This document shows, in pieces, positions 20,278-29,749 of a stretch of 64,000 bases of DNA. Source of the DNA: Flavobacterium rakeshii (GTDB taxonomy: Bacteria > Bacteroidota > Bacteroidia > Flavobacteriales > Flavobacteriaceae). Each line of letters begins with the position of its first letter. The first letter of the stretch is position 1. A program made the translations under genes and the position numbers. The stretch is taken from the NCBI RefSeq assembly GCF_009741375.1, contig NZ_WOWP01000013.1, positions 186,001-250,000 on the forward strand. The letters run 5' to 3'. Below the pieces are notes generated by a model. That model was not told where the DNA came from. It saw only the letters and a list, made by a program, of their open reading frames with translations, and searched no databases.

Positions 20278-20303
20278 AAGCCCCTCAAATGAGGGGCTTT
20301 TTT
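20278..20303 (+). terminator. Intrinsic terminator after fah
   Basis: AAGCCCCTC (20278-20286) pairs with GAGGGGCTT (20291-20299) around AAAT, followed by a T-run. Confidence 0.85.
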
Positions 20304-20460: not shown

Positions 20461-20468
20461 TAAATTTG
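20461..20468 (+). promoter_or_regulatory. -7 element of the arginine operon promoter
   Basis: TAAATTTG matches TAnnTTTG perfectly. The -33 region is weak. The expected start, about 5 bases after the box, falls within a few bases of the leader-peptide ATG at 20474, so the leader peptide may be translated from a nearly leaderless RNA. Confidence 0.5.
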
Positions 20469-20473
20469 CAACG

Positions 20474-20557
20474 ATGAATAAAAATAGATTTAATACTAAA
20501 CTCCCTAAAAATCAAACAGCTATCCGGCTTAACTACCGGGTTGTGCGGTTGGTATAA
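20474..20557 (+). CDS. Putative arginine leader peptide (27 residues)
   Basis: ATG at 20474 to TAA at 20555-20557 encodes 27 residues with four Arg. Three are within the last ten residues ('IRLNYRVVRLV'), each encoded by CGG (20525, 20537, 20546), a codon I see rarely in the neighbouring genes, which mainly use CGT, AGG and AGA. The frame directly follows a perfect -7 box and precedes the arginine biosynthetic operon. This is the classical layout of a ribosome-stalling attenuator: scarce charged arginine tRNA would pause the ribosome at the CGG cluster, next to the palindrome that overlaps the stop codon. Expression and function are inference. Confidence 0.55.
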   Translation: MNKNRFNTKLPKNQTAIRLNYRVVRLV

Positions 20558-20688
20558 TTATACCTGCCACATACTGGGTGTACTTTATTTAGTATTAATC
20601 TTATTTTAACGGAATTGAAAACACTATCTGTTTTTTTAAGGTCTGTAGTAAAAGATCATTCTTTTATATCTAATCCTAATTCTTTAGA

Positions 20689-20704
20689 GAATCGACGACG
20701 ATTC
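20689..20704 (+). other. Hairpin in the arginine operon leader
   Basis: GAATCG-acga-CGATTC is a perfect six-base stem with a four-base loop, followed by a weaker GGCC-gtaa-GGTC stem. It has no T-run, so it is not a standard terminator. It may control access to the GNAT start region. Confidence 0.4.
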
Positions 20705-20729
20705 AGGCCGTAAGGTCTGCAATATCACT

Positions 20730-20774
20730 ATGGTCCGGTCCGTCCGGCTCCAATTACCCTGTTTATTTTATTGA
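20730..20774 (+). CDS. Second short arginine-containing open frame (14 residues)
   Basis: ATG at 20730 to TGA at 20772-20774 encodes 'MVRSVRLQLPCLFY', with both Arg as CGG. It ends 32 bases before the GNAT start codon. The repeated use of CGG in two short frames of the same leader makes it a candidate second regulatory peptide, but it is short enough to be chance. Confidence 0.3.
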   Translation: MVRSVRLQLPCLFY

Positions 20775-20806: not shown

Positions 20807-21430
20807 ATGAATGTATCTATTGTAATAGCTCACGAAGAGCACTACAAATTTGCAGAAGAAATTTGTGAGACCATCAACGCTTCTGCCGTACAAAGAGGTA
20901 CGGGTATTGCCCGAAGAACCCCTGAGTATGTTATGAAGAAAATGGAGAACCGCGATGCTGTGGTAGCAACCGTAAACGGAAAGTTTGCAGGCTTTTGCTA
21001 CATAGAAAGTTGGTCTCACGGCAAGTTTGTAGCAAACTCAGGCCTTATAGTGCATCCTGATTACAGGGCACTGGGGCTTGCAAAAAAAATAAAGGAAAAA
21101 GTATTTAAATACTCTCAGGAAAAATATCCGGGAGCAAAAATATTTGGTATCACCACAGGACTGGCGGTTATGAAAATCAATTCTGATTTGGGCTACAAGC
21201 CGGTGCCTTTTAGCGAACTTACAGACGATCCAAGCTTTTGGAACGGATGCCGTGGCTGTTCAAACTTCGATATACTGGAGCGCAAAGAGTACAAAATGTG
21301 CCTTTGTACCGGTATGCTGTATGACCCGGCCAAAAAGAAAACAGAAGAAAAATACACGTTTAACAAAAAAGTGCTGCTAAGGCTTAAAAATATAAAGCTG
21401 GCACTTTTCCTTAAAAAAGAAAAAGTATAA
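20807..21430 (+). CDS. GNAT-family N-acetyltransferase, first gene of arginine operon
   Basis: 207 residues. The acetyl-CoA-binding core 'VHPDYRALGLAKKIKEKVFKYSQEKYP' is near residues 83-110. The C-terminus has several Cys ('GCRGCSNF', 'MCLCTG'), unusual for ordinary GNATs. Its stop codon overlaps the argG start (TAATG at 21428-21432), so it is translationally coupled to arginine synthesis. It probably provides the N-acylglutamate synthase step (argA function) that the operon otherwise lacks, with acetyl- or succinyl-CoA as donor. That role is inferred from context. Confidence 0.8.
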   Translation: MNVSIVIAHEEHYKFAEEICETINASAVQRGTGIARRTPEYVMKKMENRDAVVATVNGKFAGFCYIESWSHGKFVANSGLIVHPDYRALGLAKKIKEKVFKYSQEKYPGAKIFGITTGLAVMKINSDLGYKPVPFSELTDDPSFWNGCRGCSNFDILERKEYKMCLCTGMLYDPAKKKTEEKYTFNKKVLLRLKNIKLALFLKKEKV

Positions 21431-22623
21431 TGAAAAAAGTAGTTTTAGCTTACAGCGGCGGTCTTGACACCTCTTACTGCCTTAAGTACCTAAAAAACGA
21501 ACTGGGGTATGAAGTGCATACCATACTTATAAACACAGGCGGTTTTACGCCCGAAGAATTAAACGGTATAGAAACAAGGGCTTACGAGCTGGGCAGTGCC
21601 CTCCACGTAAACCTTGATATTATTGATAAATATTACGAAAAAGCAATTAAGTACCTTGTATTTGGTAATGTGCTTAAAAACAATACCTATCCGCTTTCTG
21701 TTAGTGCCGAAAGAGTTTTCCAGGCACTGGAAACGGTTAAATATGCAAAAAGCGTAGGTGCCGAAGCAATTGCTCACGGCAGTACGGGTGCAGGTAATGA
21801 TCAAATTCGTTTTGATATGGTATTCCAAACCATAGCTCCGGAAATGACTATTATTACTCCTATACGTGACCTTAAGCTTACACGTCAGGAAGAAGTGGCT
21901 TACCTACAGGAAAACGGTGTGGAGTATAGCTGGGAAAAAGCACAGTACTCTATTAACAAAGGGATATGGGGTACGAGTGTAGGCGGTAAGGAAACCCTAA
22001 CCTCATCACAACCGTTACCGGAAGAGGCCTACCCTTCTCCTTTAACAAAAACACAACCTGAAAAAGTTATTCTTCATTTTGAAAAAGGCGAACTTACAGG
22101 TATCAATAACGAATTTGACAAACCTTCGGTTAATATCCAGAAGCTTGAAGCGCTGGCTTCTGCTTTTGCTATAGGCAGAGATATACACGTAGGTGACACC
22201 ATTATTGGTATTAAAGGACGTGTGGGCTTTGAGGCAGCTGCTCCGCTTATCATCATTAAGGCACACCACCTATTGGAAAAACACGTACTGGGCAAATGGC
22301 AACTGTACTGGAAAGAGCAACTGAGCAACTGGTACGGAATGCTTTTTCATGAAGGGCAATACCTTGACCCTGTAATGAGAAATGTGGAAGTGTTTTTAGA
22401 GGACACTCAAAAAACGGTAACAGGTACGGTAACGGTAAGCCTAAAACCTTATCACTTCACACTGGACGGAATTGAGTCGGCTCACGATTTGATGAATACC
22501 AAGTTCGGGCAGTATGGTGAGGTGAACAACGCCTGGACATCAAACGATGCCAAAGGCTTTATTAAGATATTAGGCAACGCACAAAACATTTATGCACAGG
22601 TAAACGGAGAAAGCTATGATTAA
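21430..22623 (+). CDS. argG: Argininosuccinate synthase
   Basis: 397 residues. It joins citrulline and aspartate with ATP to give argininosuccinate. The N-terminal PP-loop 'LAYSGGLDTSYCL' and the 'AHGSTGAGNDQIRFD' motif are intact. The start codon shares its A with the stop of the GNAT gene, and the 3' end overlaps argC by 8 bases, so all three are translationally coupled. Confidence 0.97.
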   Translation: MKKVVLAYSGGLDTSYCLKYLKNELGYEVHTILINTGGFTPEELNGIETRAYELGSALHVNLDIIDKYYEKAIKYLVFGNVLKNNTYPLSVSAERVFQALETVKYAKSVGAEAIAHGSTGAGNDQIRFDMVFQTIAPEMTIITPIRDLKLTRQEEVAYLQENGVEYSWEKAQYSINKGIWGTSVGGKETLTSSQPLPEEAYPSPLTKTQPEKVILHFEKGELTGINNEFDKPSVNIQKLEALASAFAIGRDIHVGDTIIGIKGRVGFEAAAPLIIIKAHHLLEKHVLGKWQLYWKEQLSNWYGMLFHEGQYLDPVMRNVEVFLEDTQKTVTGTVTVSLKPYHFTLDGIESAHDLMNTKFGQYGEVNNAWTSNDAKGFIKILGNAQNIYAQVNGESYD

Positions 22624-23593
22624 CATTGGTATTATAGGCGGATCAGGTTACACAGCAGGCGAATTGTTACGACTGCTGGCTAACCATCCGCAGGCAAATA
22701 TTGATTTTGTTTACAGCACCACAAATGCGGGCAGTCCGGTAGCTAGTGTTCACCAGGACCTGTTTGGCGATCTTGAACTTAACTTTACCGATACGGTTAA
22801 CCCGAATGTTGATGTGGTTTTCCTATGCTTAGGACATGGTAAGTCGATTGCTTTTCTGGAAGCCAATGCGTTTTCGGAAAGCACGAGGATAATAGATTTA
22901 GGGAATGATTTCCGTTTAGAGAAAGATGCTGCCTTTAATGGTAAAAACTTTGTATACAGTCTTCCGGAACTGAATAAGAACCAAATTAAACAGGCACAGT
23001 ACATTGCTAATCCGGGGTGTTTTGCCACAGCTATACAGTTAGCCTTATTACCACTTGCAGCAAACAGGCTGCTAAACAATGCGGTACACATTAATGCTAC
23101 TACAGGCAGTACAGGTGCAGGAGTTCAGCCATCGGCTACTTCACACCATCCCTGGCGTATAGGTAATATGTCGCATTATAAGGCTTTTGAGCATCAGCAC
23201 ATGGGCGAAATTATACAAAGTCTTGGGCAGCTGCAAAATGGTTTTGATCAGGAGGTATTATTTATCCCAAACCGTGGTGATTTTACCCGTGGGATATTTG
23301 CAACACTTTATACCAAGTTAAGCAAAAGCTTTGATGAGGTTACAGCACTGTATGAAAAATATTACAGTAACGAACCTTTTGTTAGGGTTACTACCGATAG
23401 TATTCACCTGAAACTGGCGGTACAAACCAACAAATGCTTTGTAAGCTTGGAGCAAAAGGGCGATTACCTTTTAATCACATCGGTAATAGACAACCTTGTA
23501 AAAGGCGCTTCGGGACAGGCAATACAAAACATGAACCTGATGTTCGGGCTGGACGAAACCACCGGACTACAGCTTAAGGCTACCGGTTTTTAA
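22616..23593 (+). CDS. argC: N-acetyl-gamma-glutamyl-phosphate reductase
   Basis: 325 residues. It reduces N-acylglutamyl phosphate to the semialdehyde with NADPH. The nucleotide-binding 'GIIGGSGYTAGELLRLL' is at the N-terminus, the catalytic Cys135 lies in 'ANPGCFATA', and 'SHHPWRIGNMSHYKAFEHQH' provides the conserved histidines. It overlaps argG by 8 bases. A four-arm palindromic repeat separates it from argD. Confidence 0.96.
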   Translation: MINIGIIGGSGYTAGELLRLLANHPQANIDFVYSTTNAGSPVASVHQDLFGDLELNFTDTVNPNVDVVFLCLGHGKSIAFLEANAFSESTRIIDLGNDFRLEKDAAFNGKNFVYSLPELNKNQIKQAQYIANPGCFATAIQLALLPLAANRLLNNAVHINATTGSTGAGVQPSATSHHPWRIGNMSHYKAFEHQHMGEIIQSLGQLQNGFDQEVLFIPNRGDFTRGIFATLYTKLSKSFDEVTALYEKYYSNEPFVRVTTDSIHLKLAVQTNKCFVSLEQKGDYLLITSVIDNLVKGASGQAIQNMNLMFGLDETTGLQLKATGF

Positions 23594-23688: not shown

Positions 23689-24825
23689 ATGAGCAACTTA
23701 TTCAATGTATACCCTATATATAATATAACTCCGGTAAAGGCACTGGGGGCAAAAGTTTGGGACGATAAAGGACAGGAATACCTTGATTTTTACGGAGGTC
23801 ACGGGGTTATCTCTGCCGGGCATTCACACCCGCTTTATGTAAAGGCGGTGAGCGAGCAGGTAGCCAAGCTTGGCTTTTATTCCAACTCTATCGAAAATCC
23901 GTTACAGGAAGAACTGGGCAAAAAACTGGTTAGCTTTTCGGGTTATCCTGACTATAGCCTTTTCCTTTGTAACTCAGGTGCCGAAGCCAATGAAAATGCC
24001 CTTAAACTGGCATCGTTCCATAACGGTAAAAAGAAAGTTATTGCTTTTAATAAGGCTTTCCACGGACGTACCTCTGCCGCAGTAGCCGCTACAGATAACC
24101 CATCGATAGTTGCACCAATCAATGCAGGGCACGAAGTGGTTTTCCTTCCGCTTAATGATGAGGAAGCCTTAAAAGCAGAACTGGCTAAAGGTGATGTTTG
24201 CTGTGTTATTATAGAAGGGATTCAGGGTGTAGGCGGACTGGATGAGGGCACTACCCTTTTCTTTAAGGCTATAGAAAAAGCCTGCAACGATAATGATGCA
24301 GTACTTATACTGGATGAAATACAGAGTGGCTATGGGCGTTCGGGTAAATTCTTCGCACATCAGTACCATGATATAAAGCCGGACATCATCACTATGGCAA
24401 AAGGTATGGGTAACGGCTTTCCTGTAGGCGGTATCCTTATCTCTCCTAAGTTTAAGGCTTCATTCGGTTTACTGGGAACTACTTTTGGCGGTAATCATCT
24501 TGCCTGTGCAGCCGCAACTGCGGTGCTTGATGTTATAGAACAGGAAAACCTTATGGACAATGTTAATGCTATGAGTACCTATTTTAAGGAACAGGCTGCC
24601 CTTATACCACAGGTTAAAAACATCAAAGGACGCGGACTCATGCTGGGACTTGAGTTTGATTTTGAGATAAACGAATTACGGAAAAAACTGATTTATAACG
24701 AGTTTATATTCACCGGTAGCGCATCACAAAAAAACCTGCTGCGCATATTACCGCCACTGTCTATAAACAAGGAGGACATAGATCGCTTTTTTATCGGTCT
24801 TAAAAATGCATTAAAGGATTTATAA
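23689..24825 (+). CDS. argD: Acetylornithine/succinylornithine aminotransferase
   Basis: 378 residues, a class III PLP aminotransferase. It transfers an amino group from glutamate to N-acylglutamate semialdehyde to give N-acylornithine. The motifs are 'CNSGAEANENALKLA', 'FHGRTSAAVAAT', 'ILDEIQSGYGRSG' and the PLP lysine Lys238 in 'MAKGMGNGFPVGG'. It is slightly shorter than the usual 390-400 residues at the N-terminus but complete in all motifs. It lies between argC and the carbamoyltransferase gene. Confidence 0.94.
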   Translation: MSNLFNVYPIYNITPVKALGAKVWDDKGQEYLDFYGGHGVISAGHSHPLYVKAVSEQVAKLGFYSNSIENPLQEELGKKLVSFSGYPDYSLFLCNSGAEANENALKLASFHNGKKKVIAFNKAFHGRTSAAVAATDNPSIVAPINAGHEVVFLPLNDEEALKAELAKGDVCCVIIEGIQGVGGLDEGTTLFFKAIEKACNDNDAVLILDEIQSGYGRSGKFFAHQYHDIKPDIITMAKGMGNGFPVGGILISPKFKASFGLLGTTFGGNHLACAAATAVLDVIEQENLMDNVNAMSTYFKEQAALIPQVKNIKGRGLMLGLEFDFEINELRKKLIYNEFIFTGSASQKNLLRILPPLSINKEDIDRFFIGLKNALKDL

Positions 24826-24848: not shown

Positions 24849-25799
24849 ATGAAATACTTCACTTCGGTAGACGACATTCAGGATCTAAACGAACTGATTA
24901 CGTTAGCTAAAAACATAAAGCAGGCACCATTTGCCAACAAAAAAACAGGAGAAAACAAAACCCTGGGACTATTGTTTTTTAACCCTAGCCTACGTACCAG
25001 GCTCAGTACACAAAAGGCTGCCCTTAATCTTGGGATGGATGCCATTGTGATGAACCTTAATACCGAAGGCTGGGCACTGGAGTTTGAAGACGGCGTAGTA
25101 ATGGACGGCAACAAAGCCGAACACATTAAAGAAGCTGCACAGGTTGTATCACAATACTGTGACATTATTGCCGTAAGAAGCTTCCCTACCCTTACCGATA
25201 AGGAAAAAGATGAGGAAGAGCAGGTAATTTCTGCCTTTAAAAAATATGCATCTGTTCCGGTAATAAGCCTTGAAGGTGCTACCGAACACCCTTTACAGGC
25301 TGTAGCTGATGCCCTGACCATAGAGGAATACAAAACCGTAAAAAGGCCTAAAGTGGTACTTACATGGGCACCACATCCTAAAGCGCTGCCGCATGCAGTA
25401 CCTAACTCTTTCGTTAAGGTGATGAAAAAGGCCGATGTTGATTTTGTTATCACACATCCCGAAGGTTATGAACTTAACCCTGAGTTTACCAAAGGGGTTA
25501 CCATTACACACAATCAGGATGAGGCTTTTGCCGATGCCGACTTTATTTATGCCAAGAACTGGAGTAATTATATAGATTACGGGCAAATAACCTGTAAAGA
25601 TCCGTCGTGGACCGTAACAGCCGATAAGATGAAACTTACCAACAATGCTAAGTTTATGCACTGCCTTCCGGTAAGGAGAAATATGATTGTTACAGATGAG
25701 GTACTGGACAGTGAAACATCTATCGTTATAGCCCAGGCCAATAACAGGACGTATGCCGCACAGGCAATACTGACCAAAATACTGGAGCATGGAGAATAA
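24849..25799 (+). CDS. argF': N-acylornithine carbamoyltransferase (acetyl- or succinyl-ornithine type)
   Basis: 316 residues. The carbamoyl-phosphate motif is 'FNPSLRTRLSTQ' (residues 44-55), the proline-rich binding loop begins 'WAPHPKALPHAVPNS', and 'MHCLPVRRNM' is near the end. These features separate it from ordinary ornithine carbamoyltransferase and place it in the transcarbamylase group of Bacteroidota and Xanthomonas that acts on N-acylated ornithine. The position that I recall as distinguishing acetyl (Glu) from succinyl (Pro) substrates appears to align with Ala90 in 'MDGNKAEH', so the acyl group is not assigned. It overlaps argB by 11 bases. Confidence 0.92.
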   Translation: MKYFTSVDDIQDLNELITLAKNIKQAPFANKKTGENKTLGLLFFNPSLRTRLSTQKAALNLGMDAIVMNLNTEGWALEFEDGVVMDGNKAEHIKEAAQVVSQYCDIIAVRSFPTLTDKEKDEEEQVISAFKKYASVPVISLEGATEHPLQAVADALTIEEYKTVKRPKVVLTWAPHPKALPHAVPNSFVKVMKKADVDFVITHPEGYELNPEFTKGVTITHNQDEAFADADFIYAKNWSNYIDYGQITCKDPSWTVTADKMKLTNNAKFMHCLPVRRNMIVTDEVLDSETSIVIAQANNRTYAAQAILTKILEHGE

Positions 25800-26574
25800 G
25801 CCAAAACTTACCGTTGTAAAAATAGGTGGCAATGTAATTGACAGTGAATCTGCCCTTAAGGCATTCCTTAAAGATTTTGCAGCACTAAACGGTTACAAAA
25901 TACTGGTACACGGCGGAGGCAAAATAGCAACCAAAATAGCCGAAGGCTTAGGCATTACTCCCGTTTTTCATGAAGGCAGGAGAATTACCGATAAGCCTAT
26001 GCTGGATGTGGCGGTAATGACCTATGCAGGACTTATCAATAAAGATATAACGGCACAGTTACAGGCATTGCAAAGCAATGCCTTGGGCTTTACAGGGGCT
26101 GATGGTAATATGATACTTTCCGAAAAAAGGAAGAATGCCGCTGTCGATTTTGGTTGGGTAGGTGATATCGTTTCAGTAAACCATGAATTAGTAAAAGTAT
26201 TATTACAGCAAAATGTAGTCCCTGTATTTTGTGCCATTACACACAATGGTAACGGGCAACTGCTTAACACCAATGCCGACACCATTGCCAGTGCACTGGC
26301 CGTAGCCTGCAGTAACGATTTTGACGTAAACCTGCTGTATTGCTTTGAGAAAAAAGGGGTGCTTAGTAATGCCGATGATGACGATTCAATTATAAAAAAC
26401 CTTAATTTTAGTAAATACAGCCAGTTACGTGAAGAAAAAGTAATCCATTCGGGAATGTTGCCTAAGCTGGAAAACTGCTATGATGCCCTTAACAAAGGGG
26501 TATCGGCAGTATATATAGGCAGTCCGGAAATGATAAAACAGAACGATACAACCTGTACACAGGTGTCGCTCTAA
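25789..26574 (+). CDS. argB: Acetylglutamate kinase
   Basis: 261 residues of the amino-acid kinase fold. It phosphorylates N-acylglutamate at the gamma carboxyl. 'VVKIGGNVID' near the N-terminus, 'LVHGGGKIATKIAEGLGI' and 'GVSAVYIGSPEMI' match the family. The short N-terminus lacks the extra helix that is typical of arginine-inhibited hexameric enzymes, so feedback inhibition by arginine may be weak (inference). It overlaps the carbamoyltransferase gene by 11 bases. Confidence 0.94.
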   Translation: MENKPKLTVVKIGGNVIDSESALKAFLKDFAALNGYKILVHGGGKIATKIAEGLGITPVFHEGRRITDKPMLDVAVMTYAGLINKDITAQLQALQSNALGFTGADGNMILSEKRKNAAVDFGWVGDIVSVNHELVKVLLQQNVVPVFCAITHNGNGQLLNTNADTIASALAVACSNDFDVNLLYCFEKKGVLSNADDDDSIIKNLNFSKYSQLREEKVIHSGMLPKLENCYDALNKGVSAVYIGSPEMIKQNDTTCTQVSL

Positions 26575-26585
26575 AAACAAAACCT

Positions 26586-27710
26586 ATGAGTTTAAAAACG
26601 ATACATACCCTAACCGAAGAAGCAATATCCCTGCTTAAATCACTTATTGCCACTCCGTCTTTTTCATCGGAAGAAGAGAATACGGCAAAACTGATTGAGG
26701 CATGGTTTAATAATAACAATATCCCTTTTAAACGGGAAAACAATAATATATGGGCTTATAACAAGCATTTTGCCGAAGGTAAGCCTACCCTGCTGCTTAA
26801 CTCACACCATGATACCGTAAAGCCCAATCAGGCTTATACTTTAGATCCGTTTGAGGCTATTGAGCAGGATGGTAAACTGTTTGGACTGGGCAGTAACGAT
26901 GCGGGAGGCTGCCTGGTATCACTAATCGCTACCTTCACCTACTTTTATGAGGCCGAAAACCTGCCTTATAATATTGTAATGGTTGCCTCGGCAGAGGAAG
27001 AAAGTAGCGGTCCTAACGGACTGAACAGTGTACTGAAGCATTTACCCGAACTGGATTGTGCCATAGTAGGCGAACCTACCGAAATGCAGCTTGCCATAGC
27101 CGAAAAAGGTTTACTGGTACTGGATGTAACCATAAACGGAACTCCGGGGCATGCTGCACATCCTAACGATGATATGGCCATTTACAACACCTTAAAGGTT
27201 ATTGAGTGGTTTAGGGATTATACATTTGAAAAGGTATCTGAAGTGTTAGGTCCGGTTAAAATGACGGTTACCCAAATCAATGCAGGAAAACAGCATAACG
27301 TTGTTCCGGCGGAATGTAATTTGGTTGTAGATGTAAGGGTAAACGACTGTTACACCAACCTTGAAGTACTGGAGACCATAAAATCGGGTATTGAGAATGG
27401 TAAAGTAACAGTAAAACCAAGGTCACTGCACCTTAACTCATCGTCTATCGCAAAAGAGCACGCACTTGTACAGGCAGGAATAGCACTAGGCAGGACAACC
27501 TATGGTTCCCCTACCCTTTCAGACCAGTCGGTACTAAGTTGCCAGTCGTTAAAACTGGGACCGGGATTATCACTGCGTTCACACTCGGCAGACGAGTTTA
27601 TTTATATCAATGAAATTAAAGAAGGGGTTGAACTGTATATAAAAATACTTTCTCAATTCCTTAATTATACTACCAAAACGGCCGATGAGGCCACATTAAA
27701 ACAACAGTAA
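26586..27710 (+). CDS. argE: M20-family deacylase, probable acetylornithine/acetylcitrulline deacetylase
   Basis: 374 residues. Metal-binding motifs of M20 hydrolases are visible: 'LNSHHDTVKP', 'GSNDAGG', 'ASAEEESSG', 'VGEPTEM' and 'LRSHSADEF'. In this pathway the enzyme would remove the acyl group from acylcitrulline after the carbamoylation step. The start is 11 bases after argB and the stop overlaps the argH start by one base (TAATG), so it is part of the same unit. Confidence 0.9.
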   Translation: MSLKTIHTLTEEAISLLKSLIATPSFSSEEENTAKLIEAWFNNNNIPFKRENNNIWAYNKHFAEGKPTLLLNSHHDTVKPNQAYTLDPFEAIEQDGKLFGLGSNDAGGCLVSLIATFTYFYEAENLPYNIVMVASAEEESSGPNGLNSVLKHLPELDCAIVGEPTEMQLAIAEKGLLVLDVTINGTPGHAAHPNDDMAIYNTLKVIEWFRDYTFEKVSEVLGPVKMTVTQINAGKQHNVVPAECNLVVDVRVNDCYTNLEVLETIKSGIENGKVTVKPRSLHLNSSSIAKEHALVQAGIALGRTTYGSPTLSDQSVLSCQSLKLGPGLSLRSHSADEFIYINEIKEGVELYIKILSQFLNYTTKTADEATLKQQ

Positions 27711-29020
27711 TGAAACTTTGGGATAAAGGCATACCAACAGATAAAAAAACCGATATATTCACCGTAGGCAATGACCGTGAGCTTGACCTTGTACTGGCAG
27801 AATATGATGTTATAGGGTCTATGGCACATGCCAAAATGCTTGGAAAAACAGGACTATTAAACGATAAGGAAGTAAGTGAACTGCTTACCGGACTGGAAGA
27901 AATACTGGCAGACATCAAAGCCGGAAACTTTGCGATTGAAGACAGCTTTGAAGATGTACACAGTAAAGTAGAATACCTGCTTACTGAAAAGGTGGGCGAT
28001 GCCGGAAAAAAAATACACACGGCACGTTCGCGTAACGATCAGGTTCTTACCGATGTTCACTTATACCTAAAAGCTGAACTTACTACCATAAAACAACAGG
28101 TAAAGGAACTTTTTGACCTGCTTATGGCTATGGCTAATGAGCATCAAAATGTACTTTTACCGGGATACACACACCTACAGGTTGCGATGCCTTCATCATT
28201 CGGGATGTGGTTTTCTGCCTATGCCGAAAGCCTTATTGACGATGTTGTTATGCTAAATGCAGCCCTAACAGTAACCGACCAGAATCCGTTAGGTTCGGCG
28301 GCAGGGTACGGAAGCTCGTTCCCTATAGACAGGACTTTTACCACAAACGAACTGGGCTTTGCTACTTTGAAATACAATTCGGTAAGCGCACAAATGAGCC
28401 GTGGTAAAACTGAAAAGACAACAGCCTTTGCACTGGCATCGGTAGCGGGGACATTATCAAAACTGGCTATGGATATTTGTTTGTACCTGAGTCAGAATTT
28501 CAATTTCATAAGTCTGCCACAGCACTTAACCACAGGGTCGAGCATTATGCCACATAAAAAGAACCCCGATATTTTTGAGCTTATTCGTGGTAAGTGTAAT
28601 AAAATACAGGCATTGCCGTATGAGCTTACTCTTATAACCAATAATTTACCAAGCGGTTATCATAGGGAATTTCAGTTGCTTAAAGAAGGGCTTTTCCCTT
28701 CTTTACAAACGTTGAAATCATGCCTTGAAATGGCACACTATTCCATTAAGGAAATCAAGGTTAATGATAATATACTTGACGATAAAAAATACGACTATCT
28801 GTTTACGGTAGATGCGCTTAACGAACTGGTAGCCCAGGGTATACCTTTTAGAGATGCTTATAAAGTTGTAGGTGAACAGGTAGAGAACGGTACGTTTGTT
28901 TCGCCTAAAGCCACAAAACATTCTCATGAAGGCAGTATAAACAATTTGTGCTTAAACGAGATTGCACAAAAAATGGAAAATATAATTATTTATTCCCTAA
29001 AGGGAAACAATACGTTATAA
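27710..29020 (+). CDS. argH: Argininosuccinate lyase
   Basis: 436 residues. It splits argininosuccinate to arginine and fumarate, ending the pathway. The signature 'GSSIMPHKKNPD' and 'HTARSRNDQV' are intact. The last residues ('YSLKGNNTL') are encoded within and just after a palindrome TTCCC-taaa-GGGAA (28993-29006) that belongs to the repeat cluster around the downstream transposase, so the native C-terminus was probably replaced. Last gene of the arginine operon. Confidence 0.96.
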   Translation: MKLWDKGIPTDKKTDIFTVGNDRELDLVLAEYDVIGSMAHAKMLGKTGLLNDKEVSELLTGLEEILADIKAGNFAIEDSFEDVHSKVEYLLTEKVGDAGKKIHTARSRNDQVLTDVHLYLKAELTTIKQQVKELFDLLMAMANEHQNVLLPGYTHLQVAMPSSFGMWFSAYAESLIDDVVMLNAALTVTDQNPLGSAAGYGSSFPIDRTFTTNELGFATLKYNSVSAQMSRGKTEKTTAFALASVAGTLSKLAMDICLYLSQNFNFISLPQHLTTGSSIMPHKKNPDIFELIRGKCNKIQALPYELTLITNNLPSGYHREFQLLKEGLFPSLQTLKSCLEMAHYSIKEIKVNDNILDDKKYDYLFTVDALNELVAQGIPFRDAYKVVGEQVENGTFVSPKATKHSHEGSINNLCLNEIAQKMENIIIYSLKGNNTL

Positions 29021-29287: not shown

Positions 29288-29749
29288 ATGGCAAATACCT
29301 ATACCCAAATACATTTACAGTTTGTTTTTGCAGTTAAACACAGAACTTCTCTAATCTCTCCTATTTGGAAAAAAGAGCTCTACCTTTATATTTCGGGCAT
29401 TGTAGAAAATAACGGACATAAGCTTTTAGCCATTAACGGCATGCCCGATCATATACACATTTTTATAGGAATGAGACCTACACAGTCAGTTTCTGATTTA
29501 TTACAAGATATTAAACGTAACTCATCATTATGGATTAACCAAAAAGGCTTTATTAGGGGAAAGTTTGAATGGCAGGAAGGCTATGGAGCTTTTTCATACA
29601 GTAAATCACATGTAGAAAATGTCATTAACTATATACATAAGCAGGAAGAGCATCATAAAAAGCAATCTTTCAGGGAAGAATACCTTGAATTTCTAAAAAA
29701 ATTTGACATTGACTATAATGAAAAATACATCTTTCGTGAGCCCCAATAA
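29288..29749 (+). mobile_element. IS200-like / REP-associated tyrosine transposase (RAYT)
   Basis: 153 residues of the Y1 HUH single-strand transposase family. The HUH motif is His55-Ile-His57 in 'GMPDHIHIF', and the catalytic Tyr104 lies in 'GYGAFSYSKS', where 'WQEGYGAFS' is typical of this family. The frame is intact, so it may be active. Unlike a classical IS200 it is flanked, on its upstream side only, by many GGGA/TCCC palindromes, which fits a RAYT serving REP sequences. It sits between argH and a thioredoxin-like gene. Confidence 0.88.

Follow-up and report, generated by a model that had tools for sequence, protein, structure and literature searches.

The window, the whole 64,000-nucleotide stretch of Flavobacterium rakeshii DNA analyzed here, raises the question of how an arginine operon is controlled in bacteria that lack ArgR. 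A sequence-only reading of this DNA had proposed that a short frame with clustered arginine codons acts as a ribosome-stalling attenuator in front of the operon, and had set this against the ArgR control found in most bacteria. In the genome searches, the ArgR domain (PF02863) was absent from the window's genome and from 249 of 249 Flavobacteriaceae genomes searched, with 8 of 14 control genomes positive. Across the class Bacteroidia, ArgR was found in 8 of 149 genomes. The explanation that best accounts for the comparative data, to which we give a probability of about 0.65, is that leader translation controls the operon, with an output that would be either Rho-dependent or coupled to translation.

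As a separate observation, four genomes of this class (G428, G468, G501 and G532) carry an ArgR-domain gene directly 5' of the same first operon gene, which is the site occupied by the leader in other families.

The Arginine Operon and Its First Leader Frame

The operon is complete downstream of the leader (Table 1), and its upstream neighbor is a fumarylacetoacetase gene with its terminator at 20278-20299. The first operon gene is 100% identical to that of Flavobacterium beibuense locus L001, the window's genome being close to that species; its product is probably N-acetylglutamate synthase-like, a function assigned from the position of the gene. The frame at 29288-29749, 3' of argH, has the appearance of an IS200/REP-associated transposase.

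Table 1. Leader elements and operon genes in the window (positions counted from its first nucleotide).
Feature	Position	Strand	Basis or remark
Bacteroidota -7 promoter box, TAAATTTG	20461-20468	+	read directly
uORF1, Arg leader peptide MNKNRFNTKLPKNQTAIRLNYRVVRLV*, 27 codons	20474-20557	+	read directly and by comparison
5' part of uORF1 (codons 3-9)	20481-20500	+	85% complementary to 20588-20607; possible long-range duplex
Inverted repeat/hairpin I2	20544-20571	+	79% complementary; covers last CGG and stop of uORF1
Partner of 20481-20500	20588-20607	+	just 5' of uORF2 start
uORF2, TTG start, MKTLSVFLRSVVKDHSFISNPNSLENRRRFRP, end RRRFRP	20615-20713	+	comparison
Hairpin 1, CAGGCC-GTAA-GGTCTG	20704-20719	+	loop holds uORF2 stop codon
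Hairpin 2, GGTCCGG-TCCGT-CCGGCTC	20732-20750	+	
First operon gene, GNAT-family N-acetyltransferase	20807-21430	+	best family match below cut-off
argG	21430-22623	+	
argC	22616-23593	+	
argD	23689-24825	+	
argF' (N-acetyl/succinylornithine carbamoyltransferase type)	24849-25799	+	
argB	25789-26574	+	
argE-like deacylase	26586-27710	+	
argH	27710-29020	+	

The layout described in the sequence-only reading was confirmed by direct inspection. The promoter box is separated by 5 nt (CAACG) from the ATG of the first frame, uORF1, whose four arginine codons are AGA (codon 5) and CGG at 20525-20527, 20537-20539 and 20546-20548. The TAA stop (20555-20557) lies, as claimed, inside the palindrome GGTATAATTATACC at 20551-20564, and the distance of some 250 bases given to the operon proved to be 249 nt from this stop to the start of the first gene. 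The F. johnsoniae-like group of Flavobacterium retains a counterpart of the hairpin around the uORF1 stop, mostly by one-sided changes.

CGG is the rarest arginine codon in the window's genes, where it accounts for 12 of 18177 codons (0.66 per 1000; 2.3% of Arg codons), so that three of them among the 26 codons of uORF1 are unlikely by chance. The probability of at least three is about 7e-7 at the codon usage of the genes and 6e-5 at the local base composition. The Rfam tRNA model gave 39 matches in the draft assembly, with tRNA-Arg anticodons ACG, UCG, UCU and CCU and no CCG among these 39. CGG should hence be decoded by one tRNA alone, the single-copy tRNA-Arg(UCG), in line with the suggestion that the frame would depend on one minor tRNA.

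The upstream regions of the first gene were compared in 46 loci, nearly all from Flavobacteriaceae, and in about 190 further loci of the genus, family and class. A box of the TAnnTTTG type stands immediately 5' of the leader ATG in nearly all relatives, and within Flavobacterium a short frame follows the box directly in nearly all loci. The last arginine codon of uORF1 is CGG in 80 of 80 Flavobacterium frames, and CGG makes up 173 of their 189 arginine codons. Other genera have Arg-rich frames at the arginine operon that end in runs of CGC/CGT (e.g., ...PVRSRRRF), and arginine is kept in their leader frames through synonymous codons (CGC/CGT/CGA/AGG/AGA); the conservation expected by the sequence-only reading among Flavobacteriaceae was thus found, and the clustering of CGG is, in the loci compared, a feature of Flavobacterium, with CGC and CGT used in other genera. 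Over 55 non-redundant uORF1s, arginine accounts for a fraction of 0.156 of the codons in frame; the corresponding values for the other two frames are 0.042 and 0.050. Beyond arginine, no purifying selection on the amino acids of uORF1 was detected (pN/pS 0.79-0.96, like the out-of-frame controls). That only the arginines are under detectable selection fits a codon-counting leader.

Under a loose criterion, uORF1 or its downstream companion uORF2 is present in 183 of 188 Flavobacteriaceae loci. Short frames are common in AT-rich spacers and uORF1 has just 27 codons, which might suggest chance frames; this reading is refuted by the conservation of position, frame and arginine codons over the family, and its probability is practically nil.

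A side observation concerns the Flavobacterium loci with a divergent first gene (L119-L126), several of which, L120, L122 and L126 among them, have one CGG-rich leader frame (e.g., ...STSRSSRSRA) with its stop about 150 nt 5' of the gene.

A Second, Family-Wide Frame

The sequence-only reading described a single frame. This frame is real, but the description overlooked a second one, uORF2, as well as two hairpins that follow it (Table 1), all of them conserved in relatives. TTG is the presumed start of uORF2, whose counterparts begin with TTG, GTG or ATG and end in (R)RRP-stop. Among 59 non-redundant loci, arginine occupies position -2 in 54 and proline position -1 in 54; at position -3, CGT, CGC and CGA are exchanged between loci. 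Of the 590 codons that make up the last 10 positions of these frames, 195 encode arginine; the two other reading frames give 20 and 32. Across these loci, uORF2 is the family-wide leader and is more widely conserved than uORF1; in several genera (L155, L208, L214, L216, L220, L224, L227, L231 and L232) it is the sole leader, its ATG following the promoter box immediately. The uORF2 frame of the F. johnsoniae-like group does not stop at this place but remains open for about 60 codons until the first gene begins in 60 of 62 loci, versus 0 and 1 for the other frames, which points to translation.

The conserved end of uORF2 raises the possibility that the peptide itself is the sensor. In such an arrangement, of the TnaC type, the ...RRP-stop peptide would stall the ribosome at its own stop codon, and the ligand would be free arginine or a related metabolite rather than codon starvation. 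R-P-stop occurs in most of the 59 loci, and TnaC arrests while its Pro24 occupies the P site, with residue 23, an arginine, tuning the ligand sensitivity (PMC8429421). Furthermore, the pN/pS of uORF2 in the window's subgroup is 0.44 versus 0.93-1.03 in other frames, a figure that comes from 6 sequence pairs. However, the terminal RP-stop is conserved while the residues upstream of it vary widely between genera, and TnaC needs specific tunnel residues; moreover, the arginine run varies in length and register, as that of a codon sensor would. Nascent-peptide arrest is considered a rather unlikely rival. That ribosomes gauge the supply of arginine in uORF1 and/or uORF2 appears well supported by the comparisons.

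Conserved RNA Hairpins

In the family, hairpin 1 has the form CGCCC-GUAA-GGGUG, with the stop codon of uORF2 usually in the loop. The window's subgroup has UCCGY as the loop of hairpin 2, and the rest of the family has UGNGU, giving a nearly invariant U-S-N-G-Y overall. In two separate alignments, the covariation score of the hairpins was above that of slid controls and was reached by 0 of 500 shuffles, which ignore relatedness. Changes on both sides were found for six and seven pairs in the two alignments, respectively, the seven being all pairs of hairpin 2 in the window's subgroup.

A first RNA model (R1), built from an automatic alignment, contained 2 pairs only as MAFFT had misplaced a bulge of 1-2 nt in hairpin 2; it was replaced by a covariance model, R2, built from sequences that share one hairpin 2 bulge. 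R2 matched in 155 of 249 family genomes, at one place per genome except for one genome with two, so that the element, occurring about once per genome, should be easy to annotate and to test. The best 80 matches were checked against gene positions, and 80 of 80 precede arginine operons. Among these best 80, 78 lie 38-97 nt 5' of the first gene, and at the remaining two (L286 and L287) the next gene is acetyltransferase-like but unrelated, with argG and argC behind it. In these two loci the first gene is, judging from the gene order, replaced while the leader stayed, so that the element goes with the operon rather than with the first gene. R2 gave no significant match to the window sequence, because hairpin 2 has diverged in the window's subgroup, which was for this reason tested separately. 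At the level of sequence, comparison shows that the frames, their arginine codons and the hairpins are conserved and that they are linked exclusively to the arginine operon.

The near-invariance of the hairpin 2 loop and the strong covariation would also be expected of a ligand- or protein-binding element formed by hairpins 1 and 2, for which the overlapping frames would be secondary. No Rfam family matches the leader, for the window at the gathering threshold and for six relatives at E <= 1. Against such an element, conservation of the arginine codons extends beyond the hairpins and is confined to the reading frame, and the F. johnsoniae-like group is devoid of hairpins 1 and 2 and yet retains uORF1 with its CGG codons. 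We regard a binding element as quite improbable. With the hairpins absent from this group, the output step may differ between lineages.

Other pairings were noted in the leader. In the window, a direct repeat TAAGGTCTG occurs at 20637-20650 and 20711-20724; pairing of either copy with CAGGCC in hairpin 1 might give the window's species an alternative structure. The second pairing is the candidate duplex between the 5' part of uORF1 and the segment in front of uORF2. Among 14 sequences from the window's subgroup, the sequences' own duplexes were stronger than swapped ones (p = 0.003, by a statistic that ignores relatedness), while the other subgroup gave no signal (p = 0.62). Since its covariation is seen in one subgroup only, the duplex is kept as a lead. 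Neither pairing involves a terminator.

The Output Step: No Terminator in Front of the Arginine Operon

Attenuation in its classical sense, as known for trp and his, would let the position of the ribosome at the arginine codons choose between an antiterminator and an intrinsic terminator. The layout of promoter, leader peptide and operon is the same, and this genome has clear terminators in its his and trp leaders. The his leader MIFNQLHHHHFQTGSNARRK (LHHHHF; L273, G000 C61), 5' of hisG, and the trp leader MTTNILNNNWWWFTINIVNS (NWWWF; L274, G000 C34), 5' of trpE, are each followed by a canonical intrinsic terminator, and both terminators were recovered, as positive controls, by the same scan that was applied to the arginine leaders. 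In the window, however, no intrinsic terminator was found in the stretch from uORF1 to the first gene, where no hairpin is accompanied by a U-tract. Over 233 loci, the matches in Flavobacteriaceae leaders were weak and in most cases consisted of hairpin 1 and a poor run of T, and no terminator of a quality comparable to those of his and trp was seen in the other leaders of the family.

Another Bacteroidia family does provide such a case: at L184 and L188, Arg-rich leaders (MTTILLNLRSPRRQPNTAG and MKQVLLNYRSLRRRPYAAG) precede the first arginine gene, and the 3' arm of a strong canonical terminator recurs in the 3' end of the leader (GGCAGGCT). By its sequence, this is a textbook arginine attenuator. 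For the window's family, the lack of an intrinsic terminator before the operon leaves classical attenuation unsupported and very improbable. Of the attenuator proposed by the sequence-only reading, the conserved arginine-codon leader stands, whereas the classical mechanism is not supported.

Because no intrinsic terminator is present, the output would most likely be Rho-dependent termination or a gating of translation. The segment from hairpin 2 to the gene has C 0.163 versus G 0.069 (control, 0.150 versus 0.120) and is weakly Rho-like in composition; this and the missing terminator weakly suggest an involvement of Rho.

A purely translational route has also to be weighed, and it overlaps with one of the two outputs of the favored explanation. 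Here, translation of uORF1, or stalling in it, would open the start of uORF2, and uORF2 would pass its ribosomes on to the first gene, with no early termination at all. The complementarity of uORF1 codons 3-9 to the segment just 5' of the uORF2 start is consistent with this route, and so is the F. johnsoniae-like group, in which uORF2 typically ends one base 5' of the ATG of the first gene. However, the duplex covaries in one subgroup and not in the other, and uORF2 of the window ends 93 nt 5' of the first gene, too far for simple coupling. We consider this route unlikely, though a serious candidate.

According to the favored explanation, control by leader translation with a Rho-dependent or translation-coupled output, the supply of arginyl-tRNA would be gauged by two tandem, Arg-codon-rich short frames, uORF1 reading it via its rare CGG codons and uORF2 via the (R)RRP-stop cluster at its end. 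Under arginine shortage, ribosomes would pause in uORF1 and/or uORF2, and the leader RNA would thereby stay in a conformation through which RNA polymerase and ribosomes can enter the operon. With ample arginine, ribosomes would run through and be released, the hairpins around the uORF stops would re-form, and expression would be cut, either by Rho-dependent termination in the untranslated leader or by gating the passage of translation from uORF2 to the first gene. A tentative extension, held at somewhat below even odds, is that the RRP-stop peptide and the covarying double hairpin, with the stop codon in the first loop, form one family-wide arginine sensor that may control the arginine operon without ArgR or a terminator, and that is reinforced in Flavobacterium by an upstream sensor built on the rarest codon.

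Significance and Comparison with Known Systems

Ribosomes of this phylum make little use of Shine-Dalgarno pairing. If the favored explanation is true, it would explain how arginine synthesis is controlled in a large, ecologically important family without ArgR, add a bacterial arginine leader for the arginine operon itself, and provide a terminator-less route from leader translation to expression in a low-Shine-Dalgarno phylum. The suggestion that such a leader may be new in Bacteroidota is in line with the literature searched, where no earlier description of an arginine leader in this phylum was found. A general remark exists for F. psychrophilum, in which strong clues were noted for leader peptide attenuation 5' of amino-acid biosynthesis operons; neither an arginine leader nor a second frame or an RNA element appears in the main text of that paper (PMC9723704).

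The his and trp attenuators of the same genome share with the arginine leader the cluster of cognate codons in a leader peptide between promoter and biosynthetic operon. They differ in having an intrinsic terminator, where the arginine leader has none but two frames and, in most of the family, a conserved double hairpin. E. coli TnaC, the leader peptide of tnaCAB, resembles uORF2 in its R-P-stop end, and its output is Rho-dependent without an intrinsic terminator, although it serves a catabolic operon, responds to tryptophan and has conserved tunnel residues for which no counterparts are seen in uORF2 (PMC8429421). In rbfL of Staphylococcus aureus, rare arginine codons in a short frame likewise slow ribosomes at limiting arginine; however, this eight-residue frame overlaps the RBS, and the gene behind it, which codes for a biofilm regulator, is repressed when arginine is low (PMC13009471).

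The closest precedent, by analogy, is ORF34 of the Salmonella speF leader, in which arginine codons, a uORF and Rho are combined (PMC6386406). This short frame senses arginine through its Arg codons, its translation interferes with Rho-dependent termination, and low arginine favors expression. The likeness is one of description: ORF34 is a single frame of 34 codons from a gammaproteobacterium, and it controls ornithine decarboxylase, which is also induced by ornithine (PMC6386406).
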